A stretch of DNA of 64,000 nucleotides from NCBI GenBank assembly GCA_947568835.1, contig OX387603.1:4562701-4626700 (forward strand), in the 5' to 3' direction. The notes beneath the pieces were generated by a model that saw only the letters and a program-made list of their open reading frames with translations, was not told the DNA's origin and did not search any database. Positions 4,765 through 62,464 of the stretch are shown piece by piece. A program made the position numbers and the translations under genes. The DNA comes from Protonemura montana. Lineage: Eukaryota; Arthropoda; Insecta; Plecoptera; Nemouridae. Position 1 is the first letter of the stretch. Each line of letters opens with the position of its first letter.

Positions 4765-7220
4765 GTAATGTTACACCAAATCTATCCTTAAAAATTTAAC
4801 AATTTTTTTCGATTTTATAAGTTTTTTTTTTGCATTAAAATGAGTATGAAATATTTGTATGTGCACCTAAAAAAAAGAACAGAATTAAAAATTATTCCTG
4901 AAAGCAAAAAAGTTTTCAGTGTAATACGAGAGCCCGCCATCAGGCTTCATTGATGAAATCACTTTGTTTTAAATTGTTGGTGATTTCTGTAAATCAGTTT
5001 ATTCGAGATTTTAATCAAATTTATTGTCGTACCTCAATTATATTGCAAGAAACATAGTCTTTTTTCTCGTATACACGCGGGCGCCATTCTGATTAAACCG
5101 TGAAGAGGTCAGAGCTAACAAGGCACTGACCTCAAAGTAAGTACTTAATCTCATTTATTTTCTGAGTTTCATCCATTGCAACTATGTTATTTTTTGCAAA
5201 TAAAATTAGTGAAATCATAGACCTGATGGATGCAACTTAATCGCAATGAGTGCCTCCTGATATACTACTACCAAACTACCGAATGCCAATTATTATTTGT
5301 GGTTCACAAATTGCCCGCGTCTGGGCCTTTTTTAAGCTGGCCTGAATGGACGGGGAGGTAGGTGCTGTGCTACGTCATCGGCACGAGGATACGTAAGTCG
5401 GAATGATCTGTAGAGGGTTGCAGTTCCATAGTCTAGTGACTGAATTGCAATTGCAAGTCTCTGAAACTGGTTGCCAGTCACAAAGATGACTTGCTCCGTA
5501 CCGAGTTCGGGTCTCTTAGCAGCAATCTTGTGATCAATCTTGTGATCTTGTTAGCTCGCACTTCAATCGACATCAGCAATATCCTAGAAGCAAAACAAAC
5601 TCTCCCTTACAACATGGAAAGCTACGCAACGGTTGATGAAGAGAAATTAAGCGTTCAATTCGGTGATCCGGTACCTGTGCTCCAATCGTTTAACAGCATT
5701 GCAGCAAAGGTTCCGATTCTTAAAGAGTGCTATAGGACACCCTCGCCTGGCAAGGAATTTATTTCTACGCGTAAAAAGGCGATATTGGCCATGAGCTAGA
5801 ATCCTTTATCTATGGCATGACCCATCAGGCATAGATAGGCATAACCTGGCATAACCCTACCAGATTGAATAACGACAATGTCAGGAGATTTAACTAAAAA
5901 AGAACAAAATTATCAATCTCATAAGCTGAGAAAACTTGCAGGATCAGTCTGGGAATACTCTCAATGTCAAAATACCGTAATTTAGAAGAATATTGGACTT
6001 ATTTAAAGCGACGCAACATGTTCGAAAAGCCACCGGACGCCAACCGGCGGCATATTCAGATTGAACATAGCGAATATTATAGTCCCTTATAGAGGCTACA
6101 ATCAAGAATTCTATGCTCAGTTGAACCGTTGATTAAACAAGCTAAACGGCATATCTACCAAAATAAATTCGTGTGAAACTCAAAAATGTTGTAAAATGTT
6201 AAAAACATCAAGAGCCTACCTTGAGGTAGAAGGAAATTTTGTGCCCAAAGTTTCTAAATGGGTTTAAAAGCATCCACGACACGTTATCTTGCTACCTTGA
6301 GTTACTAAACCGGCAGTAACTACCAAACGAAAACCTAGCTAATTCAAAAATCTTGCAAAATGATAAACACAAACAGAGGAACCCTAAAAAAAGGACAATT
6401 TGACCCGGAATTTCTGAAGGAATAAACGGCAGCCAATACCCAACACCAATACGATTTCTTGAGTATATTGAGTTACTAAACCGGCTGTAACTAACAAACA
6501 AAAACCTGGCCAAACTCAAAATCCCTTGCGCCAGAACAGCTGCTTTGGTAGGAAAAGTCATCGACCTATTGCAGACGAAAATAATTTCGCATTAATTGAT
6601 CATTTTTCACCTGTTTATTTATTCAAATAATTTTACAAATTGTCAATGAATGCATAATATTATAAATCAGTAATTAATAATAAACATCACCTTTTTGCCT
6701 TAATATATAGAATCGAATGATAATTTAAAAGCTCTTGTGTTTCTCCATTTCTTAATCTGGATAGATATGAAAATCTACAGTCCCAGAAGAAACAATTGAA
6801 AAATAAACATAACTACCTCAAGTTGAATCTTTTGTCTACGCTTACTTGATACCTAGAATTCAAACTGCATTGGTACGGCTTGAAAGATTGTTCTGAAATA
6901 AATTATGTTCATTTAAGAAATTTAAAAAATGGAGCACAATTTCGTTCATTTCTGAGAATGTTTAATTATTCTTAAAAAATATGTCCCATTTTTCTCGTCT
7001 GGCTATGATTTAAACACATTGTGTTAATTTCTTCACTTAAATTGTGACAATTTTAAAATAGATTTTTGTTACTTTTTCAAAATTTTTATTAATTTCAAAC
7101 AAGCATTTGAGAGATACAATTAAAGCGATCATCGCACCTATTTACCGTTACTGAACATTAAAAAAATAACACTCTTTCGATATTCTATGCTTCAGCAAAT
7201 ATCACGTAAAAAAGAAACTA
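4765..7220. other. AT-rich intergenic DNA, one orphan open frame
   Basis: A frame of 102 codons at 5491-5799 (plus) contains no motif that I recognise and may be chance. Around 6290-6350 and 6460-6520 a word of about 60 bp (GAGTTACTAAACCGGC then TGTAACTA or AGTAACTA) occurs twice in direct orientation, 170 bp apart. From 6600 to 7200 the sequence is strongly AT-rich. No RNA gene or exon is supported. Confidence 0.4.
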
Positions 7221-7320
7221 TTGGCAGTATTATTAGTGGCCACCCATTACAAAGCATCGCCTAGCTCTTCTCCGAATCCAACTCCTATGCCTGCTAGTCG
7301 CTCCCTTGGGAACTATCGAA

Positions 7321-9828
7321 CTACCAGCTCTGCGTGGGTCGCTCTCCTCTGCTCGGCGTCTTGGCAGGACGCCGTTGGGGCTCGGGCTGACCTCCAAACG
7401 GCCTCTCAGAAAAGTCGTCTTCTCCGATTCTTGCTGGCCTGGCTGGGATCTTGGTGGGACGACGCCGTTGAGGCTCGGGCTGACCTCCCAACTGCCTCTC
7501 AGAAAATTCGTCTTCTTCGATTCTTGCTGGCCTGGCTGGGATCTTGGTGGGACGACGCCGTTGGGGCTCGGGCTGACCTCCCAACTGCCTCTCAGAAAAG
7601 TCATCTTCTTCGATCCTTGCTGGCTTGGCTGGGATCTTGATGGGACGACGCCGTTGTCCGCTGGGTCTGAAAAGCCGTTCGGAAAGTTAATGCAAGCTTT
7701 CATAGAAATGTACCTGCAAATACCATGCGCTTGCCGCATGGTTTGGTACCCCCCGATACCAAGACGCCTGAAAGATAGGCAACTTGTGTATAATATCAGC
7801 ATCATAGTTGCCTGCATTTCAGGAGCAGAGCGAACGCGTTTCAGAATAATGTGTGAACCATAAATAGTTTCATGTCAATACCTCCGACCACCGAATAATT
7901 TGCTAAATAATACAAACTGCATCTTGAGGGTAAAGGAAGGTGTTGAAGGACAACTTTTAAGAACTTGTCATTGAATTGTACCGGCTCAAATATGCGTTAA
8001 TGCATGAAAGCATGACTTATGACTTTTTCCTGTTTCTTGAGGAAAGTGTCTCGACCACTTAGGAAGAATGTATCGCACAAAAAGGTGAAGAGCCGGCCGT
8101 GCCCAGTTGGTAATAAAACTATCCCAGAACGTTACCAGGTTTCTCTCTACATAATCCGACAGTGGAAATAACCGACTTCATCATCGGGTTATAGGAATTT
8201 CTGTTAAATGTTCTCAGCCATTGCAACTGGTGGTTCTAACACATTTTTCACAATTTTTCTACAAGTTTTGCGCTAATTTATGCGTATGTCTCTAACCTGC
8301 GCTCGGTGGGGTCAGCTTCGACCGGGGCCTCGACTTCCGCCGGTTTCACGGCCGGCACGCGTTGTCCCCGGTGCTCCATAATCTGCTTGGAATTGAGATA
8401 CCAGAAGGGCATGTGCTCCCTCGGGAAGTCCGCCAGGCGAGGGGTGAGGTAGGGGTCTCCCATGATGCCCTCTTCAGGCTTCAGGGGAGCTTTGTCCTCA
8501 TCGTCGCCGCCAACTCGGTTACCGAGACCGTCGGTCGGTTTGAACTGGTCCAGCATCTCGGGTACGCCGACGGGACGCGATGCGTAGAACGGCCGGTTCT
8601 GGGCGCTGGCAAAGACAGCTAGGGCCAGAATGATCAGCGAAGATTTCTGAAATATTAATTATGTATGTTTCAGATTGGGATTTTTTCATTTCATAGGCGA
8701 GGAAAAACGAAGCCGTATCTCTGTAAATAAAGAAGTTTGTTACACATGTTGGACAACAAGCTGAAATTGTTAGAGTATGTTCAGGACACCTTAGTGTATC
8801 TGCCATTAAAAGTTTCTCGTCGGAATTTAATTAAAAAACCTATAAAAATCAAAATCTGCTAAAACCAAAAGAAACCGTTTTAAATGATAGCGTCACCATT
8901 GTTCAACATAAAATATTACAGAGGGTGTCAACTGATGCATCTTTGTTAGATCTACAAAATAATTATGTAAAATATGGCATTTCTGAACACTGAATAGCCT
9001 TAAAATTCTTAAAATCGACCAAGAAATCGAAATAATTCTCGCTACCGCTCTTAACAATATGAGAAATTTAAAAAAAAAAAAACATTTTTTTTAAGCAACC
9101 CGTTGTGTAGCCCTGGGTGTTAGCTTCAACTTTGCCGCTAGTCACCGCATCTTTTTAGCAAATATTTTAGTCGTGGTCTACCCGTGGTCTACCAGCCGTG
9201 GCTGGTGCCCCGTGTTATGGCGCCTTAAGACCGTGGATTTACGGTCTTAAGACCGTCTAAATTTAATCCCTGACTTTTTGGTAATTGTTCACACCAACAA
9301 CTCTAATGTAAAATCTAGAGTAAATTGATGCGAAAGTAAAGATATTTCGTCAAAACGATATTACTTTGCGATAATTAAATATCAAACTAAAATTTCTAGG
9401 TTAAAGTATGAAAAGTTCAGTTCTTTTGACGACAATGAGTTGCAATAATGTAACTCGATGTAATCAACCACGAAGACGTGCGGTCACGTAGCAACGTGCC
9501 AAATGTTAGCTCGAAAATGTTCGCTATATTGGGTGCTAAATTTGGTCCCTCCTGTTTCACCCATCTCTTACAAACAGTCCCAAGAAGGTAAGTGTGTTTG
9601 AATTTCGTGGTACACTGAATCGTACAGAAGGTGAGTGCAGAATAAACTGGCACATAAGAACGGTGTTAGGCAAGGTTCGGCTCAAAAATGTGTAATTTTT
9701 TCTAGTTTCTAACACACAGCATGGAAATATCGTCAACAGCCTCATCGTAAAATGTGTCTCCAAAGCTCAACGATTAGCAACAAAAAAAACTCAGCCCCGA
9801 AGAAGACGACAGAATCTCTTACCATCAT
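7321..9828 (-). CDS. Secreted protein with Arg/Pro-rich 31-residue tandem repeats
   Basis: I joined three exons with matching phases: 9828-9823 (ATGATG then GTAAGA), 8646-8297 (after TTTCAG; ends CGCAG before GTTAGAG) and 7666-7321 (after CTTTTCAG; stop TAG). The product is 233 residues. Residues 1-17 are a signal peptide ending VFASA, with QNRPFYASRPVG as the mature start. The middle contains FPREHMPFWYLNS. I half-remember similar N-termini in uncharacterised insect secreted proteins, but this is unverified. The C-terminal half has three near-identical units: a basic block (QRRRPTKIPARPARI), an acidic block (EEDDFSER) and a QLGGQPEP linker, followed by a fourth, truncated unit. The layout resembles a multi-copy peptide precursor. 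An antimicrobial role is an inference only. Reading through the 8297 donor would give a shorter form ending at TAA 8278. Confidence 0.75.
9192..9251 (-). other. Two adjacent perfect hairpins inside intron 1
   Basis: CTTAAGACCGT (9224-9234) and ACGGTCTTAAG (9241-9251) form an 11-bp perfect stem around a six-base loop. Just before it, CCAGCCGTGGCTGG (9192-9205) is a second near-perfect palindrome. Both lie in the intron between exons 1 and 2 of the secreted-protein gene. No microRNA-length stem is present. Confidence 0.5.
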
Positions 9829-9898
9829 GATGCGCTGGGTGTGCCTGTTGGAGGAGCTCAAGTTTCTTGTAACACTATCGATAGCTTGCTGCGTTTCA

Positions 9899-9936
9899 AA
9901 CTGAGCCAACTTCCGATGGCGATTAATAATTTATAG
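9899..9936 (-). promoter_or_regulatory. TATA box plus initiator of the secreted repeat-protein gene
   Basis: On the minus strand CTATAAATT (9936-9928) lies about 33 bases upstream of an insect-type initiator TCAGTT (9904-9899, likely start at 9902). The predicted 5' leader is about 74 bases to the ATGATG at 9828. Spacing and order are those of a canonical arthropod core promoter, which strengthens the exon-1 call. Confidence 0.6.
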
Positions 9937-9939
9937 AGC

Positions 9940-11235
9940 CCTAACTCTTTCCTCGGTCAGAATTACTTGGTGCAACCTATCGATAGTGTGAAACTCCCGG
10001 GCACAGGAAAACCACAGGATTACAGAAGCGTGAGTCGTGACTGCTGGAGGCAGGCATTCAATGCGATGAGTCAGACAGCATCTCTTATGCTCTGAGCCCC
10101 GAGGCTGAGCCCCGAGTTGTGCTGAGGAAAAGATGAGAAACGGTAAATCCAGATTCAAAAAGTCATTTTATAAGCTTTTTTTATGTATTTTAATTTTTAT
10201 ACATTTCCTCCTTGACCTGCGAGAGTTCTGTTTTTTATATGAAATTATCAAATCACTAGCAATTATTTAAAAGTGGTTCCAAGAAATATGAACAGGAAAA
10301 CATTGCTTTCCCGAAATTATGTTAGGAGTTATGGGGTTCATTGGTTAGCGATTCATGAGGTGAGATAACAAAAAAACTTCCCCGTCCATGAAAGAATTTT
10401 GATTTCTATGCCTGGAAATAAATCGAGCTGTAACGGTCCTGTCGCCAGTCAACTAAAAATCCTTGTCAAATAAGCATCCGATTTTCGAAATGAAAATGCA
10501 CTAAAGTATCTTTGGATGAAAACGGGCAAACATATTGATGAAGTCGTCGTGAAGTCCATGTTAGCTACTTCTAGAGGAACAATGGGGGTTACTTTTCTTG
10601 GGAGACGAATGTAGGTATTTTACAAAGAGCGTGCGGAAAAGCACTCGGAGTAAATTGACCAAAACGGAGTTGATACATTTTAAAATAAGGGTAGATCATA
10701 GGGTCCTAAGAGCTCTAAAGGAGTTGATCTCTGAAGATCAACTCCTTAGTCAGGTCCTTTGACAATTATTCCTCAAGCCAATGGTATTCGAGTCCCTTGA
10801 CGACTTGACCCTTGCGAGGTTCCACCGAGATACCGACGCTGTATCAAAGATGCGCCGAGTAATATCGAAGTCCACAAAAGTCAGAAAGTAATTTGAACTT
10901 GAACTTGAACACAAGCAGTGTACTTGAAGTGAGCATCGTTATAGAAACAAGTCGTTAAAGCGCGGTGAAATAGTTACGATTATCAAGCGAATACGCTATA
11001 ACTACATTAGTACCAATGTTTCATCAAAGATATTTCGAAATTTGCAGAAATCGATTCCATCTTTTGCCTCTGGACGGCAATCCCCACTTACCTTGAGAAA
11101 CTCCTTACTAACATAGATTCATAAATAATATCAACGCAATAAAAGAATGTAGGAGGTACTTTTAGCATGACGCATTACAATGTACACATTTGTTCACGGA
11201 ATAAAGACATTATTATTATTATTATATTATTATTA

Positions 11236-12253: not shown

Positions 12254-14430
12254 ATGGCCTCCTCACAGACTGGAGCATGGAGTAAGTGCATTTCTGGCAA
12301 TACTTTCAGTTCTTTGCAGCTGCCTTCATGTGTTAATGTGCATTATCAGAAGTAGTTTATTTAGACTAATGCTACGTGTTTATCATAGTCAGGAGAAATG
12401 AATGGGTAAGATAATGATGTCAGAATAAAAATATTTTTCATTTCGAATATCAAAACATAAAAAAGGGAAACAAAGAAAAAATGAAAACAATTTGTTCTAA
12501 CTAAAAATTAACGCGTTTTGGATAAAATGTATGAAAAAAGTTGCAAGCGAACGAGTTAGAGCTAGTTTAAAAAGGTCCAGCTAGGAAAACAAGGAGCAGA
12601 ACCAGAAGTTAGTATATTTCGAACACGTGTGTGAAACATGGACAGAAATAGAGGGAACTCCAACTATTTACTCAAAAACACATCTTTAATACTAGAATAT
12701 TTTAAATTATTGAAAGTAAGCCATATTTGACGGTGAATCAGTGAAACTCGATTTCTCACACAACCCCTGAATAATCGCCACCCATTATTTCGACTATTAG
12801 GAATGGTGCTGACTGACCGCGAATGCAGCGAGCCCCTACGACTCGAGCGCGACCTGCACGTGACTCGTGTAACCCTCGAGCTGGAACAGACCACTCGGAT
12901 CAAGGCCGCGGCAGTCTTCTTCCAGGTCAACGGCGGGTACGAGGCTGAGCTCTGTCGCATCGGGGACCATGAGGGCTACACACTCAGCGTCGACATGGAC
13001 CGAGTGTTCTCGCGTGGGGACACCGTCAGGTGCGACTATTTTGTTGCTAACTAAGTGCTATCTCGTGGAACCAGATACCAAAAAAAGCCCTTTGGAACCA
13101 TTTCTTCCATTAGAAACAACTTCATGTTGTGTTTTGATATGGTACTGTTTGTCTGGGATGCAATTTAGTCATACTTGGATATTATTACTTTAACCAGCGT
13201 TGCGTAACGGATGCCACCTACCTTAGGTACCTTTTATCACAGAGATAATCTAAAATGCAATGTTTATCGATAACAGAAATGAGATTATCTCCGTATCATG
13301 TCTACTGTGATGAAATGAGTGTTGTCGTCATTGATTAAAATCTCAAAGCATAAGATAATCTACCTCACGGCTTTGTCTCCGGTTTTTGTCGTATACAACA
13401 TATTGAAGAGAATGGTTTGACCTTTGCAAAGTTGGTCCGATGCATCCTGAGCTTCGTATTCAAACCATTAATCACACTTTGTCCTTCATCTGGGGCTACT
13501 GGGCGTCGCGACGTCGGCGTCTTCGTGACGTCGAGGCATCAGGCGTCGGAGAGCGTCGGAGAGTTTGGTTTGATTGATTGATCATTGGCACCGACCATCG
13601 TATTGGCTACAAACAAAAGCGTATGCTCAAATCCTCAACATTCATCATTCTTTAACCCCATGATGGTCAGCTTCTAATTCACAGAAACATCTGCATGTGA
13701 TTCCAGCTAGTTGAGAAAATTGTAATACTGGGAATTAGGCATCTCGCGTTACGTAAAAGTGTGGCGGGTAAACGACCCGTCGACGATCACCGGGCACACT
13801 CACACACTCAATTTTATCTTGAGGAAAGGCCAGATCTAGTTGTGCACTGAACATTAAATGTGCTCTTCAGCTACTATTAAAATATTTGTACCCGTGGTAG
13901 CATAAGATTGCAGAATTAAGAAGCTCTGTCAGGCGATCTCAGCATCTCCATGGCTACCAAACGTTAAATCTACCATGTGAACGGCCAGTACTTAAACATA
14001 CTTAATTGAACCTCCTTCCATGATTCTGATTTTTTATTTGCTTATTTTCCATGGTACCTATAATGTAGGCCAGTAATTTACAAAACTTTTTTATTATTTT
14101 TTTTAATATTAACCTAAAATTGAAGTAAAATTTTTTTTTAAGTAACCAGCGTACAAATAATTCTCCACATTTAATACTCCGTCCTTGAGTAAATTTTCAT
14201 CAAAAGTAGGCCCAAAATCATTAATCAACTTTTGTAACTGATGCAAACCTCTACGGGGTTGTAATCTTATATAAGATTTGATTTGCAGGTTTGCCGTGGG
14301 GATGATGCGGTCTGTTGTGACGAGCGTGGGGACAGTGAGGCTCGAGGGCCACTTCGACATGAAGTCTCGTGGGCCCTGGGGTGATGTTCCCATGGAGGGT
14401 CCACCGCAGAAGAAAATTTTGCTAGCATAA
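12254..14430 (+). CDS. Unrecognised 132-residue protein, three exons
   Basis: The exons are 12254-12281 (ATGGCC to GGA before GTAAGT), 12801-13029 (after CTATTAG, ending GTCAG before GTGCGA) and 14289-14430 (after TTTGCAG, stop TAA). Phases match at both joins (1 and 2). The product begins MASSQTGAWRM and has no signal peptide or membrane segment. It alternates hydrophobic and polar residues in a way that suggests beta strands (LHVTRVTLELEQ, AAAVFFQVNGG, RFAVGMMRSVV, GTVRLEGHFDM) and has two cysteines (ECSEP, AELCRI). It ends in a proline-rich tail and KKILLA. Exons 2 and 3 are much GC-richer than their surroundings, as in the other genes of this window. I do not recognise the family. The first exon is short, so the start is the least certain part. 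A poly-A signal AATAAA lies at 14597. Confidence 0.6.
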
Positions 14431-17248: not shown

Positions 17249-20037
17249 ATGAAATTGGAAATGAAAGACTACACCGTAGTGGCGAAAATCGGCAGTGGAA
17301 GTTACGGGTAACAAATATGTCTTCTGATATCCACAATTTTGTTAAATTTGCAAGCAAATACCTTAAAGATTTCTTTCAGTACTGTTCATATCTGCCTACG
17401 AAACAGCGACAGAGTGAAATGTGTCGTCAAAGAAGTGCATTTGGATGAAATGAACGATAAAGAATGCCAGGTATATTTTTTAACCTTACTCATAAACATG
17501 ATCAGCTGGAAAAGAAGCTACCTAGATGAATCATACAGTCTTCCGGCGTTGCTTCCGGCGACATTTCATAAGATAATTTGTTAAAAGCATCTGCACTGAG
17601 AAGATTACATTTGTAGTTAACTTCCGACACCAATCGTAAATTGGTGGGTTCATCATTGACCTATATTATTTTTGTCACTAGAGTTAGCAATAATTGGTGA
17701 AAATTAGTCTGCCTTGAGAAAGATGTTCTTTAAATGTTTCAAATAAAAATCCAAATTTTTTCGTAGTTTGAATTATGTGTTAACACTTAATGCTATAATC
17801 AAATGACAAAACAAATAAGTTGATATTAAATGGTGTAACTAAAAAATTACCTCACAGCTTTGAGAGAACAGAACTAGCACTTTTTTGGAACAATGCGGTG
17901 TCAGCTAACAGCGTCCTGAAAGTCCTCTGATTCCTCCAACTTTTCGTTGCCTGATTTGCCCCACGATCGACCCGTTTGGCTACCTGCCTATATCTGTAAT
18001 TATTTATCGAACACATAAATCCAGCACCCATTTCAACAACCTTTCGTTACTGCTATAAGCTGTGTATTTCCATAATTAATCCCTATAATTTAAAAAGCAC
18101 CTATATGGACAGGCCGCCCTGGAAGAAGTGCGAATTCTATCGAGCCTGTCCCACCCAAACGTGATTGGTTACGTGGATAGCGAACTGCAAGCCGATTCGC
18201 TGCTGATTGTTATGGACCTTGCCAGTCAGGGTTCGCTTCACCAAATGCTACAAGCCCGGCGCAACCATCCTCTCCCATTCTACGTGAGTTCTAATATTGA
18301 TGCTAGTGTAAATAACAAATTACGTAGTGCCATCTCTCGGACAGATAACGCCAAAAACTTTATAAATATACACTGTTTTGCAATAATTATAAAGGTTTTC
18401 TCTTGTTCATAGGAGGTAATGAGTATTTTTGTGCAAATTGTTCTGGGCTTAGAATACGTTCACTCACAGCACGTTCTGCACCGTGACCTCACCTCAAAGA
18501 ACGTGCTGCTCGAAACAGATGGTAGCGGCAGAACAACTGTCAAGCTGGCCGATTTTGGCATCGCCAGGCTGCTCCTAAGGTAAAGTAGGGGTCGATTATT
18601 TTTTCAATGAATTAATTCAATTACACAGTAGCAATCCCATTGCTACTGCGGCATTCTAGCGTGTTCAACTTTTTATTATCAGTGCCTGTAAATTTTGCTC
18701 TGCTGGGCTAGTTAAAGCTCAATAGCTATAGGTAATTAAAAAAAAAGTTGCAACCTGAGAACCATTTTGCTGCCACAGCATGTTAAAGATATTGATTTCT
18801 CTTTTTTTTTGGAAATATCAAATACATTTTCCTTAACTTTGTACCTACTGCAAGGGGTGCGCAGTGGGGTAAGGAAGTGCGTATGCACTCATCTTTAAAA
18901 TACCAGTTTAATTGACTAACTAAGCCACTGGTAGTTGAATTGAATTCTCCCACTTTGTTTTCGACACGCCTTGATGCTGCATACCCAGTAAACTCTCACT
19001 GCATGCCCCTGCATGCTTCATCAGCTTTCTAATCACTTCTCCTATTCCAGCCGCAAGATGGCATCGACGCAGGTGGGCACTCATTGGTCCCCGGAGCTGT
19101 GCCAAGGTATCGGCTACGGCACTGCCAGCGATGTATGGGCCTTGGGCTGCGTCTTCTACCAAACACTCACTTTCAATGACCCTTTCCCTGCTACGGTACG
19201 CCCTAACCCAGAACCGTTGCTTTCTATTTCTAATGATAAACCAGCAAAGTGTAGACAGCTGATCTCAAAAAACCAGGATAGAGCATAGAAAACTACTGAT
19301 GAAAACCTTAAAAGAACACTTTGAGAGAACTCAAAACTAGGTACTAAGATGGCAGACTTGGCTTCAGTCTCTCTATGGCAGCTGTCATCCAGGTAATTTG
19401 AGGAGTGTTTAAGCGGAATAGCAGGTACCGAAACAATTTCCACAAATTCTTAGAAATTCCTAATTGCAGGGCAGATTTAGCGTTTCTCTTACCATCACAG
19501 CACTGATCTGGAACCTTTTTGAACGCAAGGTACTGTTGGTACTTTTTCACTACGCTTGGTGTAATCCAATGTTCAATTTAAGTGTTACAAGACATCACTT
19601 TAAAAGGACTGGAAGCACACAGAATTTTAGGGTTAGTAATATTAGGAAAATGACTTCGAACTTGTCGGTAATTAAATTTTATTCAAAAATAATTTAATGC
19701 CCTCTTTAATCAGTACAAACAATCCAAAAAATTGTTTCAATTTCATAAAAAACAAGGGATATATTTAAACCATAGCTGATTGCAACTGAAAATATAAGTC
19801 AACTCAGTGCACCTTGGTCCCATGCAGAATGTGGTGGCGATGGCGCGCAAGGTGATGCTGGGGTCTTACGAGTCGATCAACGAGTTGCTCTACCCGGCGC
19901 CGGGACTTGCACACCTGGTGTCGTCGCTTCTCCGAACCGATCCAGGCAAACGCATCTCACTCTGTGGCGTCAAACTGCATCCCGTCGCTATCCCACACTT
20001 CGTGCTAGCGGCAGCCGATTTAGGTCGCATTGTTTAG
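17249..20037 (+). CDS. NEK-family-like Ser/Thr protein kinase, kinase domain only
   Basis: Six exons join in phase: 17249-17307, 17380-17470, 18113-18283, 18413-18579, 19051-19195 and 19828-20037. They give 280 residues, essentially a bare kinase domain. Visible motifs are the glycine loop GSGSYG, the lysine strand KCVVKEV, the helix-C run [19 protein letters not shown], the catalytic loop [21 protein letters not shown] and [21 protein letters not shown], the [11 protein letters not shown] hinge and DVWALGC point to the NIMA-related (NEK) family. Two oddities: the catalytic-loop lysine expected after HRDL is threonine, and the P+1 segment reads GTHWSPEL, two residues shorter than the usual GTPYYxSPE. 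The C-terminal regulatory region typical of NEKs is missing. The HRD aspartate, DFG aspartate and ATP-binding lysine are kept, so activity is possible but unproven. Confidence 0.88.
19257..19288 (+). repeat. Single monomer of the 41-bp satellite inside a kinase intron
   Basis: The 32-base stretch starting AGCTGATCTCAAAAAACC matches the 41-bp satellite consensus (array at 32.7-33.5 kb) with only two or three differences. It sits in the last intron of the kinase gene (19196-19827) with no neighbouring copies. Confidence 0.7.
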
Positions 20038-21539: not shown

Positions 21540-24413
21540 TCAGTTCCCATTGACGTGCATAGCATGCACAGCTTCCATGTCATCGTCCTCATCTTCTTCC
21601 TCTTCAGTCGCATCCATGTCCACGCCTGAAAACAGAACATAGAGTCAAACGGGCGGGACACAACTAGGGTCTGAAATCTCAACAAATACTTTCCTGTGCT
21701 ACGTGCTGTGAACTTTATGGCCTAGACTTGCAATCGATAAAATCCTTTATAACATATGTAAGCTTAAGTTTGGATGGAAAGTAGCTTTAAGCAGTAATGA
21801 GAAAGTAAAGTGAATGCTACTTCTTGTGTGTATGGGTCAGCGCCAGAACAGGAACTGCCCACTTATTTGGGTAACCAATTCAGGTAACTTATTTGTATCA
21901 ACAGCCAAAGGGCCATCTCACTTGGCCACAGACCTGTTAAGTTCTCACTTAAGAATAAACAGGCCATCAAATCTCAGGGGTAAAAAAAATGTAAAAGATC
22001 TTGATCAACAAATTCACACAACAGCATCTAAAGGTCCAACCCTCTCACCTGGAGGCAGGTCGGTGGGTTTAGGTCGGCCCGGAACGATGCCAGCCTGCAA
22101 CAGACGACTGAGTCGCTCCACCTCGTCCAGGGAGCCGGCCTTGGCGATGGCCTCACGGATCTTCCATCGCTCCTCCTCCGTCGGGCCCGCTTGTGCCTTG
22201 GGATCTGGTAGCGCCCCACCAGGTACAAACGTCTTGGCCTTGCGGCTGATTTCTTTCTGTAGGTCGCGGCCACGCTTTGATTTGAACAACTCGGTGGCTG
22301 CCGTTCGCTCCTGCAAGGCACGGACTGATTAGATGCAGTCGCATTTCTTATGAAAGAATTGAACAAGAAAGTCGAAAAACTTGCTCAGCAAACAAAATAT
22401 TGGAGCTAAGATCAGAATTACCTGGGAGTGGATTGATGGTGCTTCAATAAAAAGCACAAGAGACATGAGTAAAAATGTTGGGTTCCAACCAAAAGCCCCA
22501 TTTGTCAGATTTTTAGTAAGTGCATAGGGTGCCAAGAGACTAGATAATTTATGTTGTGAAGAAGGACGGAGGGAGCGCAACTTACCGGAGAAGAAAATCG
22601 GCTTTGCAGGGTGCACTTGTTCGAGAAATCCATAATTTTGGCAACACGCCGAAACATTAAAATTCTTGGAAATTCTAGAAATTTCTCACCGAGTGCACAA
22701 TACAATCCCAATTTTCTTTTCTGGTAAGTTACGCTACCTGCCTTCTAATTAGAAGTTGGTTGCAAAAAATATATAAACTTACCGCAAGCTTGATCTTGCA
22801 GAAGTCAAGGACTCGAAGCTGTGGTAACTTGTGGGCAATGTACTGACGGTAGTGTGGTTTTGATGCAATAGGGTTGTTGAGTAGACTCAGAGAAGACAGG
22901 TGTGGTAGAGCAGCGAGTGGATCAATATCGGACAGTTCAGTTAACTGGTTTCCTGTCATTACTAACGTTTGTAAGTTGGGTAACGATGAGTGAAGTGTCT
23001 CGGATATTCGTCTGTAAGCAGAGAAAATTGTATTGGCAACTTGTCTTTCATACAGGAATGGTGAAGCGTAGAAGATTAGGCTAGTTGAAAGATGATCACT
23101 TATAAAATTGACAAAGCTTGCAACTATTTAGCTGTCCTAAAAGTACAAGTAAAAAGAAATATAAGTACATATTAAAGAAATCTTCAGTCCTGCAGTGTTA
23201 TTGTAATCCTGTAAAAGCCAGTGTCATAACTGTCAAACAGTTGCCACGACAGTCTGTCGTAGCAGAACCAAAACAAAGAAACCACATACTTTCAACAAGA
23301 ACCACAGCCGAAATACTCAACCCAAAACATTGTCTGGCAATAGAAATTGCCGTAGTCAAGGATTACACATATACCAATAATAACGCGATATGAGCAGAAT
23401 TAAAAGCGCAACATCTTTTCCTACTACATCTTTTCTTACACATGTACATTGATAGTGTGGCAGAAGCTATATCTCAGAATCATCCTACATAGATGCACGC
23501 TAAGATGCTAGATGCCATAAGCGCTTGACCTCTAACTAACCTAGTCTTTCTTACATGATTAAAGCATAGATTTAGGATAGGAAGCTTACATTCAAGCATA
23601 TGAATGGAAATCATTCGTTTCCATTGAAAGTAAGGCATTATCACAAACGTTTCAATTTAAACTTCTGTTAACATATATCATTCTCACTCATGCCGCATTT
23701 GCTCATGGAGTCCACATTTTTGGTCCCATTTAAGGTATGATGGCAGTTTCGGAATCCACTCTTCCCAGGTCTTAGACTTGGAGAACCTTGATTTTTAACG
23801 ATTTATGGTTGTGGCATGAGTTTGAATTCCAAAACGGCGTAGCGAAGTTAAGAAGGGAATCGGCGTAAATCAAGTGCAGGCCCGGGTTAATTTTGGGTTT
23901 CACATGTTTTTCGGCAATTCAACGCTCATCACCTGATGAATGTCCAGTTTCTCAGCGCTCCAACTTCGAAAATTCAGGGGACTGCCAGCACATGTCGGCA
24001 CTCACTGAACCGAGCACGGGGATTCTATAATTTTACCTCAAAGTTCAAATGGTGATGATACTTACACAATCCTATTGTTGTTAAATAGCAGAGTCTTGAT
24101 GCGTTTCAGCAATGGAAATCCATCGAGTTTCCGAACGTCATTGTCAGAAAAGTCAATTGTGTCAAACTGGTCCAGAGTGGCGCCCATATTTTCAATTACC
24201 GGTATTTTGTATCCTGAAACAAAGACACAGTTAATGGGGCTAAACATTTCTAACAAATTATTCGGTGACATAACCAAACTACACTGCCGATGGGTCGGCG
24301 CGTCGGCGTCCGGCATCTTCTTGTATCTCACCTCGTAGGTCTAGTTCACGATCTTTGACAGGATTCGTGCATTGCATCGACTGCTGAATTAAGTCTGGTG
24401 TTAGTTTCACCAT
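21540..24413 (-). CDS. SNRPA1: U2 small nuclear ribonucleoprotein A' (U2A')
   Basis: Five exons join in phase: 24413-24332, 24213-24066, 23011-22783, 22310-22049 and 21625-21540. They give 268 residues against about 255 in human. U2A' binds U2B'' and U2 snRNA stem-loop IV in the spliceosome. The N-terminus MVKLTPDLIQQSMQ and DRELDLRGYKIPVIEN is diagnostic. Leucine-rich repeats follow (FDTIDFSDNDVRKLDGFP, IKTLLFNNNRI, LQTLVMTGNQLTEL, LSSLSLLNNPI) with the LRRcap YRQYIAHKLPQLRVLDF. The C-terminal KSKRGRDLQKEI and KTFVPG segments are also typical. The last exon encodes an acidic tail (EEEEDEDDD) ending HVNGN. The gene is convergent with the kinase, and its introns carry no recognised repeat. Confidence 0.96.
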
Positions 24414-28892: not shown

Positions 28893-29574
28893 ATGCTGGA
28901 CATTCCGTGACAGGGTGCTTGTTTCACTCCACGCAAAGGAGCGGACACTCACCGTCGCCTCTGTGCTGGACATTCCGTGACAGGGTGCTTGTTTCGCTCC
29001 ACGCAAAGGAGCGGACACTCGCCGTCGCCTCTGTGTTGGACATTCCGTGACAGGGTGCTTGTTTCGCTCCACACAAAGGAGCGGACACTCGCCGTCGCCT
29101 CTGTGCTGGACATTCCGTGACAGGGCGCTTGTTTCGCTCCACGTAAAGGAGCGGACACTCGCCGTCACCACTGGGCTGGACATTCCGTGACAGGGTGCTT
29201 GTTTCGCTCCACGCAAAGGAGCGGACACTCGCCGTCGCCTCTGTGCTGGACATTCCGTGACAGGGTGCTTGTTCCGCTACACGCAAAGGAGCGGACACTC
29301 GCCGTCACCTCTGTGCTGGACATTCCGTGACAGGGTGCTTGTTTCGCTCCACGCAAAGGAGCGGACACTCGCCGTCGCCTCTGTGCTGGACATTCCGTGA
29401 CAGGGTGCTTGTTTCACTCCACGCAAAGGAGCGGACACTCGCCGTCGCCTTTGTGCTGGACATTCCGTGACAGGGTGCTTGTTTCACTCCATGCAAAGGA
29501 GCGGACACTCGCCGTCGCCTCTGTGCTGGACATTCCGTGACAGGGAGCTTGTTTCGCTCCACGCAAAGGAGGGA
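28893..29574 (+). repeat. 70-bp satellite, island A (about 10 units)
   Basis: The unit starts CTGGACATTCCGTGACAGGG and ends with a GCCGTCGCCTCTGTG run. It repeats every 70 bases with few substitutions. Each unit contains CGCTCC-ACGCAAA-GGAGCG, a 6-bp hairpin. The array begins after CGCCATG and ends inside a unit at GGAGGGATAAAT. Long open frames on the minus strand here are a by-product of the repeat. Confidence 0.95.
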
Positions 29575-32716: not shown

Positions 32717-33494
32717 GCTCACTGATCTCAAATAACCTGGATTAAGCATAGGATCCAGCCAGCTGATCTCAAATAACATGGATAGAGCATAGGATCCAGC
32801 CAGCTGGTCTCAAATAACCTGGATAGAGTATAGGATCCAGCCAGCTGATCTCAAATAACATGGATAGAGCACAGGATCCAGCTAGCTGCTCTCAAATAAC
32901 CTGGATAGAGCATAGGATCTAGCCAGCTGATCTCAAATAACCTGGATAGAGTATAGGATCCAGCCAGCTGATCTCAAACAACCTGGATAGAGCATAGGGT
33001 CCACCCAGCTGATCGCAAATTACATGGACAGAGCATAGGATCCAGCCAGCTGATCTCAAATAATCTGGATAGAGCATAGGATCCAGTCAGCTGATCTCAA
33101 TTAACCTGGATAGAGCATAGGATCCAGTCAGCTGATCTCAAATAACCTGGATAGAGCATAGGATCCAGCCAGCTGATCTCAAATAACCTGGATAGAGCAT
33201 AGGATCCAGCCAGCTGATCTCAAATAACCTGGATAGAGCATAGGATCCAGCCAGCTGATCTCAAATAACCTGGATAGAGCATAGGATCCAGCCAGCTGAT
33301 CTCAAATAACCTGGATAGAGCATAGGATCCAGCCAGCTGATCTCAAATAACCTGGATAGAGCATAGGATCCAGCCAGCTGATCTCAAATAACCTGGATAG
33401 AGCATAGGATCCAGCCAGCTGATCTCTAATAACCTGGATAGAGCATAGGATCCAGTCAGCTGATCTCAAACAACCTGGATAGATCATAGGATCC
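32717..33494 (+). repeat. 41-bp satellite array, about 19 units
   Basis: The unit is GATCCAGCCAGCTGATCTCA followed by AATAACCTGGATAGAGCATAG. Nearly every unit carries a CAGCTG E-box and the BamHI-type word GGATCC. The outer units are more diverged than the inner ones, as expected for unequal exchange. The minus-strand frame here is repeat-derived. Confidence 0.95.
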
Positions 33495-40654: not shown

Positions 40655-41400
40655 GACATGGAATATCCAGCACAGAGGTGACCGTGAGTGTCCGCTCCTT
40701 TGCGTGGAGCGAAACAAGCACCCTGTCACGGAATGTCCAGCACAGAGGTGACCGTGAGTGTTCGCTCCTTTGCGTGGAGCGAAACAAGCACCCTGTCACG
40801 GAATGTCCAGCACAGAGGTGACCGTGAGTGTCCGCTCCTTTGCGTGGAGCGAAACAAGCGCCCTGTCACGGAATGTCCAGCACAGAGGTGACCGTGAGTG
40901 TCCGCTCCTTTGCGTGGAGCGAAACAAGCACCCTGTCACGGAATGTCCAGCACAGAGGCGACGGCGAGTGTCCGCTCCTTTGCGTGGAGCGAAACAAGCG
41001 CCCTGTCACGGAATGTCCAGCACAGAGGCGACGGCGAGTGTCCGCTCCTTTGCGTGGAGCGAAACAAGCACCCTGTCACGAAATGTCCAGCACAGAGGTG
41101 ACGGCGAGTTTCCGCTCCTTTGCGTGCAGCGAAACAAGCACCCTGTCACGGAATGTCCAGCACAGAGGCGATGGTGAGTGTCCGCTCCTTTGCGTGGAGC
41201 GAAACAAGCACCCTGTCACAGAATGTCCAGCACAGAGGCGACGGCGAGTTTCCGCTCCTTTGCGTGGAGCGAAACAAGCACCCTGTCACGGAATGTCCAG
41301 CACAGAGGTGACGGCGAGTTTCCGCTCCTTTGCGTGGAGCGAAACAAGCGCCCTGTCACGGAATGTCCAGCACAAAGGTGACGGCGAGTGGCCACTTTTG
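40655..41400 (-). repeat. 70-bp satellite, island B (about 11 units, reverse orientation)
   Basis: The plus strand shows the reverse complement of the island-A unit. The left-hand units share ACCGTGAGTG while the right-hand ones have ACGGCGAGT, so subtypes are clustered. The last unit decays into GTGGCCACTTTTGTGCG. Plus-strand frames up to 197 codons span the array and are repeat-derived. Confidence 0.95.
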
Positions 41401-45644: not shown

Positions 45645-45858
45645 AGGGCATTCCGTGACAGGGTGCATGTATCACTCTACGCAAAAGAGCAGACACGCGC
45701 CGTCGCCTCTGCGCTGGACATTCCGTGACAGGGTGCTTGTTTCGCTCCACGCAAATGAGCGGACACTCGCCGTCGCCTCTGCACTGGACATTCCCTGACA
45801 GGGTGCTTGTTTTACTTAACGCAAAAGTGCGGACACTCACCGTCGCCTCTGTACTGGA
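45645..45858 (+). repeat. 70-bp satellite, island C (about 3 diverged units)
   Basis: Three units of the 70-bp repeat in forward orientation with more substitutions than elsewhere (GTATCACTCTACGC, TTTACTTAACGC, GACACGCGCC). It looks like an old or dying island. Confidence 0.9.
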
Positions 45859-47080: not shown

Positions 47081-47084
47081 TGAG

Positions 47085-47938
47085 TGACCGCTCCTTTTCG
47101 GGGAGCGGAACAAGCACCCTGTCACGGAATGTTCAGCACAGAGGCGACGGCGAGTGTCCGCTCATTTGCGTGGAGCGAAACAAGCACCCTGTCACGGAAT
47201 GTTCAGCACAGAGGCGACGGCGAGTGTCCGCTCCTTTGCGTGGAGCGAAACAAGCACCCTGTCATGAAATGTCCAGCACAGAGGCGACGGCGAGTGTCCG
47301 CTCCTTTGCGTGGAGCGAAACAAGCACCCTGTCACGGAATGTCCAGCACAGAGGCGACGGCGAGTGTCCGCTCCTTTGCGTGGAGTGAAACAAGCACCCT
47401 ATCACGGAATGTCCAGCACAGAGGCGACGGCGAGTGTCCGCTCCTTTGCGTGGAGCGAAACAAGCACCCTGTCATGAAATGTCCAGCACAGAGGCGACGG
47501 CGAGTGTCCGCTCCTTTGCGTGGAGCGAAACAAGCACCCTGTCACGGAATGTCCAGCACAGAGGCGACGGCGAGTGTCCACTCCTTTGCGTGGAGTGAAA
47601 CAAGCACCCTGTCACGGAATGTCCAGCACAGAGGCGACGGCGAGTGTCCGCTCCTTTGCGTGGAGCGAAACAAGCACCCTGTCATGAAATGTCCAGCACA
47701 GAGGCGACGGCGAGTGTCCGCTCCTTTGCGTGGAGCGAAACAAGCACCCTGTCACGGAATGTCCAGCACAGAGGCGACGGCGAGTGTCCGCTCCTTTGCG
47801 TGGAGCGAAACAAGCACCCTGTCACGAAATGTCCAGCACAGAGGCGACGGCGAGTGTCCGCTCCTTTGCGTGGAGTGAAACAAGCACCCTGTCACGGAAT
47901 GTCCAGTACAGAGGCGACGGCGAGTGTCCGCTCCTTTC
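47085..47938 (-). repeat. 70-bp satellite, island D (about 12 units, reverse orientation)
   Basis: The reverse complement unit is repeated with a trimeric higher-order pattern: GTCATGAAATG recurs at about 47262, 47472 and 47682 (210 bases apart), and TGGAGTGAAAC at 47382 and 47592. A stop-free plus-strand frame of 264 codons runs through it. The island ends abruptly at CTCCTTTCCACG. Confidence 0.95.
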
Positions 47939-50336: not shown

Positions 50337-50955
50337 TTCTGTGCTGGACATTCCGTGACAGGGTGCTTGTTTCGCTCCACGCAAAGGAGCGGACACTCAC
50401 CGTCGCCTCTGTGCTGGACATTCCGTGACAGGGTGCTTGTTTCACTCCACGCTAAGGAGCGGACACTCGCCGTCGCCTCTGTGCTGGACATTCCGTGACA
50501 GGGCGCTTGTTTCGCTCCACGCAAAGGAGCGGGCACTCGCCGTCGTCTCTGTGCTGGACATTCCGTGACAGGGTGCTTGTTTCACTCCACGCAAAGGAGC
50601 GGACACTCGCCGTCGCCTCTGTGCTGGACATTCCGTGACAGGGTGCTTGTTTCGCTCCACGCAAAGGAGTGGACACTCGCCGTCGTCTCTGTGCTGGACA
50701 TTCCGTGACAGGGTGCTTGTTTCGCTCCACGCAAAGGAGCGGACACTCGCCGTCGCCTCTGTGCTGGACATTCCGTGACAGGGTGCTTGTTTCGCTCCAC
50801 GCAAAGGAGCGGGCACTCGCCGTCGTCTCTGTGCTGGACATTCCGTGACAGGGTGCTTGTTTCACTCCACGCAAAGGAGCGGACACTCGCCGTCGCCTCT
50901 GTGCTGGACATTCCGTGACAGGGTGCTTGTTTCGCTCTACGCAAAGGAGTGGACC
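50337..50955 (+). repeat. 70-bp satellite, island E (about 9 units)
   Basis: Forward-orientation units with a tetrameric higher-order pattern: the variant GGGCACTCGCCGTCGTC occurs in units 280 bases apart (50481 and 50761), and so do GGAGTGG (50621 and 50901) and CACTCC after GTCGTC (50551 and 50831). The island stops inside a unit at GGAGTGGACC. Confidence 0.95.
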
Positions 50956-52186: not shown

Positions 52187-52492
52187 CAATCAGCTGGCTG
52201 GATCCTATGCTCTATCCAGGTTATTTGAGATCAGCTGGCTGGTTTCTATGCTCTATCCAGGTTATTTGAGATCAGCTGGCTGGATTCTATGCTCTTTCCT
52301 GGTTTTTTGAGATCAGCTGGCTAAGATCAGCTGGCTAGATCCCATGCTCTATCCAGGTTATTGGAGATCAGCTGGCTGGATCCTATGCCCTATCCAGGTT
52401 ATTTGAGATCAGCTGGCTGGATCCTATGCCCTATCCAGGTTATTTGAGATCAGCTGGATGGATCCTATGCCATATCCAGGATGCTGAGATCG
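52187..52492 (-). repeat. 41-bp satellite array, reverse orientation (about 7 units)
   Basis: Units of AGCTGGCTGGATCCTATGCT followed by CTATCCAGGTTATTTGAGATC are the reverse complement of the 33-kb unit. One unit is cut short near 52320, and a CATATCCAGGATGCTGAG unit marks the decayed end. Confidence 0.93.
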
Positions 52493-60499: not shown

Positions 60500-62150
60500 C
60501 GGTCCTAGTTCAAGGTATCAATTTTGAAAATTCCTGATTTCCGTGACAGTTTGTGCGCATTAAAAAGTCAAAACGAGCCTCTTTATTCGGAGTGAATCTG
60601 ACAGAGCAGCCTGTCCAAGTTGTTGCCAACACACAGTCAATCTTTCCGGACTACATAAAATGCAGTAAAAGTCATCTGAAACGAAACGATGAAAATCTCG
60701 GGACGCAACAATCGAGTTTTCAAATGAAATCGGAAGTGTTGAGATTATATCATCGGCCATGGATGTACAAGAGGCTAGATGAAAATGTGCCAGCTCCGGC
60801 CCAAATCGTTAACCTGATTTGAGTGTTGCTTACTCGATTGCGATTCAGTATCAATAGTTACATTTTATTAGAGAACATTCGAGTGGTCGCAGAGTTGCTA
60901 ACTCTCTTGAAGCAACGAACTGTCTCCAATTCGTTCATTAGATCAGTTTCAAGGCGGTGACCAAATATGTGTTTAGTGTTTTGTGATTCGTGATTGTTGC
61001 TAATCGGTGAAGAGATAAAAAGTGATGCTAAATTCACTTAAAGAACGGTGAATGAAAATAAAATCCTACATTCTGAATCTTAATTAGATGAAAGAGAAAA
61101 CAGGTCTCTGCTCGCTCAAATGGCTTACAAATTTGAATTCAAGTTAAACGGGAAACAGATAAAAACGGAAAAATCGTTATGTATCGTGAAATAATGTCAC
61201 ACACTTTTGACAGCCAAACATTAGAAACTTATTGGAATTTCGGAATGATTACGAGCGCTTAAATTGTCTCAGAAAATAAAGATGATGAAAATATTCCACA
61301 AATATAAATATAACCACTGTAAAAACATTGTACTCAAGTGCATTGCTAGGTAATTTGGTGAATTGAGAAACAACCACAGCTCCACCAAGTCATACAATGT
61401 GGCCATAAAGAAGGTAAATGCAGAACACATTCTATAAAAGTGGTCAATTTCTTCTACACCAGGATAATTTCATCATCAGTTTGTAAACTATCTTTCGATA
61501 TTAATTGAACAATTGCGTTTGGGACTACGTCAACGCAGTGCGTGGCCGGGTAGAAATGTAATTAAGTCAGGTACAAAGTAGCAATGTGGTAAATTTACAT
61601 GTTGAGAAAATAAATTTCCACTACCACCTTGGTTCCAAAGAATGATTCCAAGAAGGTAGAATTTGAATTTTTTACAGCCTTTCGGGATCTTCACCTACAC
61701 TATGAGTGTTTCAACGGTTCTGAAATTTTCATACAAAACCAACCATCGCACGTTACGATACGTACAAGGAAAATATTCGCATTTCAGAGGTAGAGGTCAT
61801 TACTATTTAACATTCCAATACATGTAAAAAGTTTTTATTTTATTTCCAAAAAGTTTCCTTATACCCAACTCTCTAACTGCGATGACTTTCTGCTATCTGC
61901 GAGCTCTACTGAATTGGCAATTGTGCGTGCCCGACAATGACGATTATGCGTAATGACATCACAGACGAATGATGGTTGATATTGATGCCGAACACTTTCT
62001 CGTCGCTACTGAGACATCGCACCAATATCAATGCCAAAACGATAGACGTAAACGCACGTGTGCGAACCTCTGGCGTAACTCTGCCCGTTAGATTGTGAAA
62101 ATTGAAGCTTTGTGAGTAATTGAGATCTTAACAGTCGTTTGTTTCCCTCA
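60500..62150. other. Intergenic DNA, nothing firmly supported
   Basis: A minus frame at 60760-60560 (SFENSIVASRDFHRFVSDDF...) and a plus frame at 60553-60822 overlap. Neither is flanked by clear splice sites. The minus frame could belong upstream of segment B copy 2, but I cannot show this. Confidence 0.35.
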
Positions 62151-62156
62151 CTGCGA

Positions 62157-62464
62157 AGAAGCGGACACTCGCCGTCACCTCTGTGCTGGACATTCCGTGA
62201 CAGGGTGCTTGTTTCGCTCCACACAAAGAAGTGGACACTCGCCGTCGCCTCTGGGCTGGACATTCCGTGACAGGGTGCTTGTTTCGCTCCACGCAAAGGA
62301 GCGGACACTCGCCGTCGCCTCTGTGCTGGACATTCCATGACAGGGTGCTTGTTTCACTCCACGCAAAGGAGCGGACACTCGCGGTCACCTCTGAGCTGGA
62401 CATTCCGTGACAGGGTGCTTGTTTCGCTCCACGCAAAGGAGCGGACACTCGCCGTCGCCTCTTT
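62157..62464 (+). repeat. 70-bp satellite, island F (about 4.4 units)
   Basis: Forward-orientation units start in mid-unit after CTGCGAAGAAG and end at GTCGCCTCTTTGATAG. The first units show ACACAAAGAAGTGG variants. Confidence 0.95.

Follow-up and report, generated by a model that had tools for sequence, protein, structure and literature searches.

A putative secreted protein of Protonemura montana with a charge-patterned 93-bp repeat tail, and its repeat-less paralog

The window, by which we mean the whole 64,000-nucleotide stretch analysed (Protonemura montana, contig OX387603.1, positions 4,562,701 to 4,626,700), contains a minus-strand gene of three exons that join in phase into 702 nt, encoding 233 amino acids and a stop codon (Table 1). 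Both introns have GT..AG borders, and the matching exon phases described in the original prediction are borne out, as is its pairing of a TATA box with an initiator (TATAAA at 9935, TCAGT at 9904). The N-terminal residues MMKSSLIILALAVFASAQ, read by eye, resemble a signal peptide that would be cleaved after ASA, in line with the signal peptide that had been proposed, and the 233-residue precursor contains no cysteine. From residue 19 onwards the computed mass is 24.6 kDa. The GC content of exon 3 is 0.607, as against 0.408 in intron 2. Taken together with the comparisons below, the sequence indicates that this is a real gene belonging to a small arthropod family.

Two side observations concern this gene model. 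The sequence TATCGATA, identical to the Drosophila DRE motif, occurs at window positions 9876-9883 and 9978-9985, flanking the putative start site, and has four copies in the whole window. Retention of intron 2 would extend exon 2 through window 8278-8296 and end its product in RRLETYA followed by a stop, giving a repeat-less form of ~124 aa, compared with the 140 aa of the paralog described below.

Table 1. Coordinates of the gene, its repeat units, its competing reading frames and its paralog (window positions unless a contig is named; ↓ marks a junction).
Feature	Position	Strand	Basis or remark
TATA box (TATAAA)	9930..9935	-	by sequence; paralog TATAAA at equal 33-base distance from initiator A
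Initiator TCAGT, putative start site A 9902	9900..9904	-	by sequence alone
Exon 1 coding part (ATGATG), then GTAAGA	9823..9828	-	phase-0 intron right after start codon, as in paralog
Exon 2: remaining signal-like N terminus and conserved segment NRPFYASRPVG...PREHMPFWYLN..HRGQRVPA	8297..8646	-	paralog at 56% identity
Exon 3: repeat tail with stop, in the frame with the best support	7321..7666	-	phase-2 junction AG↓A
Repeat unit 1 RRRPIKIPAKPARIEEDDFSERQLGGQPEPQ	7561..7653	-	joined exon translation
Repeat unit 2 RRRPTKIPARPARIEEDEFSERQLGGQPEPQ	7468..7560	-	joined exon translation
Repeat unit 3 RRRPTKIPARPARIGEDDFSERPFGGQPEPQ	7375..7467	-	joined exon translation
Degenerate unit 4 and C terminus RRPAKTPSRGERPTQSW, then stop	7321..7374	-	joined exon translation
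AATAAA polyadenylation signal	7085..7090	-	by sequence
Competing splice acceptor (CTATCTTTCAG↓GCGT), would shift repeat to another frame	7767..7768	-	AG-site scan
Overlapping open frames	7233-7874 (-), 7237-7863 (+), 7170-7640 (+)		ORF listing
Repeat-less paralog	G000:C16:6045510-6045926 (L006; exon 2 at 4927-4508)	-	protein search with exon 2

The remainder of the window contains other genes and repeats. Exons of a protein kinase gene (PF00069) lie at 18089-18412 (+) and 18992-19288 (+), an exon with an LRR_9 match (E 4.4e-28) at 22729-23127 (-), and an ORF at 12737-13051 (+), possibly an FKBP-type gene, has a weak nucleoplasmin-like (NPL) match at E 0.13, under the curated cut-off. One 70-bp satellite forms six arrays in both orientations (28894-29571, 40660-41390, 45649-45858, 47082-47937, 50338-50954 and 62139-62462), several of which contain long open frames that we judge not to be genes, and a 41-bp repeat forms two arrays in opposite orientation (32722-33494 and 52189-52480) whose consensus units are near reverse complements. 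Elsewhere in the genome, the start of contig C16 is (CCTAA)n, the sole one of four contig ends (both ends of C2 and C16) with this repeat; TTAGG is the telomere repeat typical of arthropods, in keeping with an arthropod source. The region G000:C2:2501-3000 (L007) consists of (AACCA)n from base 2501, unlike TTAGG, with bases 1-200 and 2451-2500 before it given as N.

The tail predicted from exon 3 is built from a 93-bp array at 7368-7656, with 3.1 copies and 94% matches according to TRF. Its lag-93 identity of 0.944 stands far above 0.402, the highest value that 200 mononucleotide shuffles reached at any lag from 30 to 149, and the repeat is therefore real. The three full units differ from one another at 6, 7 and 5 of 93 positions, and they are followed by a degenerate fourth of which RRPAK- is all that remains, so both the near-identity at the DNA level and the count of about three and a half units had been described correctly. 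In each 31-residue unit a basic block, QRRRPTKIPARPARI, precedes an acidic one, EEDDFSER, which is the alternation of charge that had been reported. Six of the 14 residues in the basic block are basic and none is acidic; proline occupies 3 of these 14 positions and 5 of the 31 positions of the unit. The charge segregation within the unit was matched or beaten by 478 of 20,000 shuffles of that unit. Genome searches, which scored the best candidates only and skipped very common words, returned a single place for the repeat unit as DNA in the 258-Mb, 34-contig genome; as protein, in the same 258-Mb genome, that place and a chance-level match at E 0.93. A 24-base core, with at most 3 mismatches allowed, matched the three units at this locus alone.

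Repeats with a length divisible by three are often open in several frames. Besides the reported frame, one more on the minus strand and two on the plus strand stay open over all or nearly all of this tract, which makes an alternative reading of exon 3 feasible. The lack of stop codons is no proof of the frame in itself, since 12 of the 76 AG sites between 8236 and 7321 leave at least 100 codons open if spliced to exon 2. Under such an alternative, exon 3 would not continue the coding sequence of exon 2 in the reported frame but would be a non-coding repeat or would be translated in another frame through the acceptor at 7767; we nevertheless consider this unlikely. That acceptor (CAG, pyrimidine content 0.64) equals the one at 7666 (GGCTTTTCAG), which leads to the reported frame, by simple pyrimidine count, and its 178 open codons speak against the reported frame; on the other hand, the extra 101 bases that it would include have a GC content of 0.485, a drop from the 0.607 of exon 3. 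Codon usage gives conflicting answers. Trained on 521 codons, in a test that chose the true frame for five of six training exons left out in turn, it places the reported frame third of six over exon 3 (-0.218 bits per codon); the other minus frame scores -0.122 and a plus frame -0.157. With the 255 family codons alone, the reported frame has the best score over exon 3 (-0.147, followed by -0.326 and -0.46), but over a single unit a plus frame (0.016) ties with it (0.011). The differences among units favour the reported frame over the other minus frame: three of the nine are silent in the former, whereas in the latter 9/9 change the residue and third positions are not affected (probability of no silent difference, 0.07). 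With an expected silent share of 0.26, the probability of at least three silent differences is 0.44, so the three silent and six replacement differences do not point to purifying selection on the tail, nine sites having little power. The joined product reads SGQR where the paralog tail has TGQR, a short match that argues against another frame. In our own judgement, the reported exon-3 junction and frame are likely to be right.

A protein search of the genome with exon 2 detected a single relative, on contig C16 (56% amino acid identity, E 2e-27, cut-off E 1), and the reciprocal search of the same genome at E<=10 recovered these two genes and nothing else. The paralog encodes 140 aa in two exons, with an ATG, a phase-0 intron at the start codon as in the window gene, and then ILTVHLLIACL...QRSPYAPKPVGYPTVLEQF...GPLKPEPGTIGDPYLVPHLPEWPREHQPFWYLNQQHILNHRGQQVPA...; like the window protein, it contains no cysteine after its signal-like part, as read by eye. 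Its TATAAA (the first of two, 5153 in L006) is located 33 bases before the A of GCAGT at 5122, a spacing identical to that from 9935 to 9902 in the window gene. Unlike the window gene, it ends in a short Q/R-rich tail without the 93-bp repeat. This paralog of exon 2, with the same start-codon intron and TATA-initiator spacing and without the repeat, is the new element contributed by the follow-up.

Of the 120 codons aligned between the two genes, 87 entered the codon comparison, from which the signal region and the tail were excluded. Residues are identical at 49 of the 87 codons, and nucleotide differences number 27, 21 and 55 at first, second and third codon positions, respectively, so that 55 of 103 fall at third positions; dN is 0.36 over these codons, and the NG86 estimate of dS is returned as -1, as when saturated. 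Because of this third-position excess and a dN of 0.36 relative to the paralog, the exon-2 protein is evidently a constrained gene product, and the comparison indicates that a segment of approximately 85 residues is under purifying selection. The part that this comparison finds constrained is the exon-2 segment common to the repeat-less paralog. On this evidence the two genes constitute a constrained family in which one copy has the repeat tail, and the tail was apparently gained by the window copy or lost from the paralog.

The homology searches proposed along with the original prediction were productive within the genome, where they led to the single paralog of exon 2, and returned nothing from Pfam or, at E<=1, from the viral and prokaryotic collections. 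Pfam hmmscan reports no family up to E 10 for the precursor and none up to E 1 for the paralog, and a PDB search gave no match for the precursor or for the repeat piece. In collections that are viral or mainly prokaryotic/metagenomic, the two-gene alignment yielded 268 word-sharing candidates and the full precursor 3072, with none at E<=1 in either protein search; 37 pattern matches in viral contigs and 30 in genome contigs, mainly prokaryotic/metagenomic, gave no confirmed case. Absence from collections of this composition tells little about arthropods. Similarly, the motif PFWYLN was not found in literature text, which is no proof of an unpublished family. As far as Pfam, the PDB and the viral/prokaryotic collections reach, the two genes apparently represent an undescribed small arthropod family.

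In multi-copy precursors of proline-rich antimicrobial peptides (PrAMPs), cleavable basic sites bound each copy, and a proline after the cut site hinders cleavage by proprotein convertases. In the present precursor, all five basic runs of two or three residues (5/5) precede proline, which amounts to about three independent cases because three of the five are copies of one, and R-X-K/R-R sites are absent. These features disfavour release at RRR, and the multi-copy proline-rich antimicrobial precursor with RRR-bounded peptides envisaged in the original prediction is not supported, given these features and proline at only 3/14 positions of the basic block. The layout itself does recall such precursors: their peptide copies are separated by a conserved oligopeptide, according to PMC11678341, and given the proposed frame the three full basic/acidic units present copies with a conserved spacer, in which the basic and acid-free block suits an antimicrobial peptide. 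The same source notes that PrAMPs can contain Pro-Arg-Pro motifs (PRP), of which there are none in these 233 aa, and describes two Galleria PrAMPs that miss the typical PRP motifs and are encoded together with an anionic peptide by one gene. In view of this precedent, neither the acidic blocks nor the missing PRP excludes a PrAMP reading. Set beside apidaecin-type precursors by description and in layout only, the window gene is alike in being secreted and in combining repeated basic proline-containing blocks with spacers, and unlike in having no R-X-K/R-R, proline-free dibasic site or PRP and in possessing a constrained non-repeat segment of ~85 residues. There are just three units, and the searches of the 258-Mb genome revealed no further locus of this kind, which also counts against an apidaecin-like precursor. 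An antimicrobial reading is possible, yet it fails the test of convertase-type release sites and its odds are low for that reason; the apidaecin-like version, with an acidic spacer and a basic proline-containing peptide cut at RRR, we hold to be very improbable.

Cleavage at minimal R-X-X-R sites offers another route to peptides. Four such sites occur, at residues 95, 164, 195 and 225, and those at 164 (unit 2) and 195 (unit 3) read RPAR↓I, so that cutting there, as in a lebocin-like precursor, would produce a 31-residue peptide with an acidic front and a basic end. PMC5282435 reports a lebocin with four RXXR motifs, "as other lebocins", and lebocin precursors are by description also secreted, proline-containing and furnished with several R-X-X-R. 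Against this, unit 1 has KPAR in place of RPAR, so that RPAR↓I occurs just twice in the repeats, unlike lebocin precursors; site 225 precedes proline; R-X-X-R is a loose motif within an R-rich tail; and hmmscan detected no Pfam family. We regard this lebocin-like precursor as improbable. A bolder version is likewise improbable in our estimation: an undescribed arthropod secreted family in which one of two genes recently grew a tandem polyampholyte tail, from which cleavage at RPAR↓I would release acidic-basic peptides of 31 residues, as a new multi-copy defence or signalling precursor on an old conserved N-terminal segment. A neuropeptide-like multi-copy precursor could account for repeated units with basic runs inside a secreted precursor; however, the units, checked by eye, have no glycine directly before a basic residue and thus no amidation signal, and the basic runs precede proline, which makes this reading exceedingly unlikely.

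Single-sequence AF2 models of both exon products are of low confidence and nearly devoid of structure. The exon 2 product (mean pLDDT 58.2, pTM 0.19) has helices of at least four residues at 12-16, 31-34 and 81-92, the longest, 81-92, lying inside the conserved PFWYLNSKQIMEHR; the model of the exon 3 product (mean pLDDT 66.7, pTM 0.14) shows no secondary structure. As single-sequence folds are often poor, these models suggest, at most, that the protein is disordered. The pattern XBBBXXBX (QRRRPTKI), which is of heparin-binding type, occurs in all three full units and in 2.0% of shuffled units; it is weak evidence, and since the units are copies of one another its three occurrences amount to a single event.

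Our preferred reading, held with evenly balanced confidence, is that of a secreted protein, free of cysteine and probably disordered, which would belong to a matrix or secretion and bind polyanions at several points through its tail. The protein would work whole, uncut at RRR, in a secretion or in extracellular matrix such as cuticle, an egg covering or a glandular product. Its conserved segment may provide a family-specific contact, the repeated basic blocks could support multipoint binding of anionic polymers or acidic matrix proteins, and the acidic blocks would keep the tail nearly neutral, soluble and capable of self-association. In-frame slippage or unequal exchange involving the 93-bp unit may have produced the tail in one gene copy; alternatively, the other copy may have lost it. 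Low-complexity arthropod cuticular and matrix proteins are characterized by an intron near the start codon, absence of cysteine, richness in proline and tandem repeats, all of which are seen here along with a signal-like N terminus, whereas the window protein and its paralog differ from them in having no Pfam match at all. Pfam recognizes in neither protein a known domain or motif of matrix, cuticle or chitin-binding type, in a search that classes without a Pfam model escape. The structural or extracellular-matrix alternative mentioned in the original prediction would fit better than the antimicrobial precursor, although no Pfam domain backs it.

At present, these findings stand as a modest annotation result. 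If a peptide-precursor reading were true, the gene would represent a new multi-copy peptide precursor. If the matrix or secretion reading is true, the family would comprise a constrained secreted protein that has a charge-patterned repeat tail in one copy, with the untailed copy serving as a built-in control.
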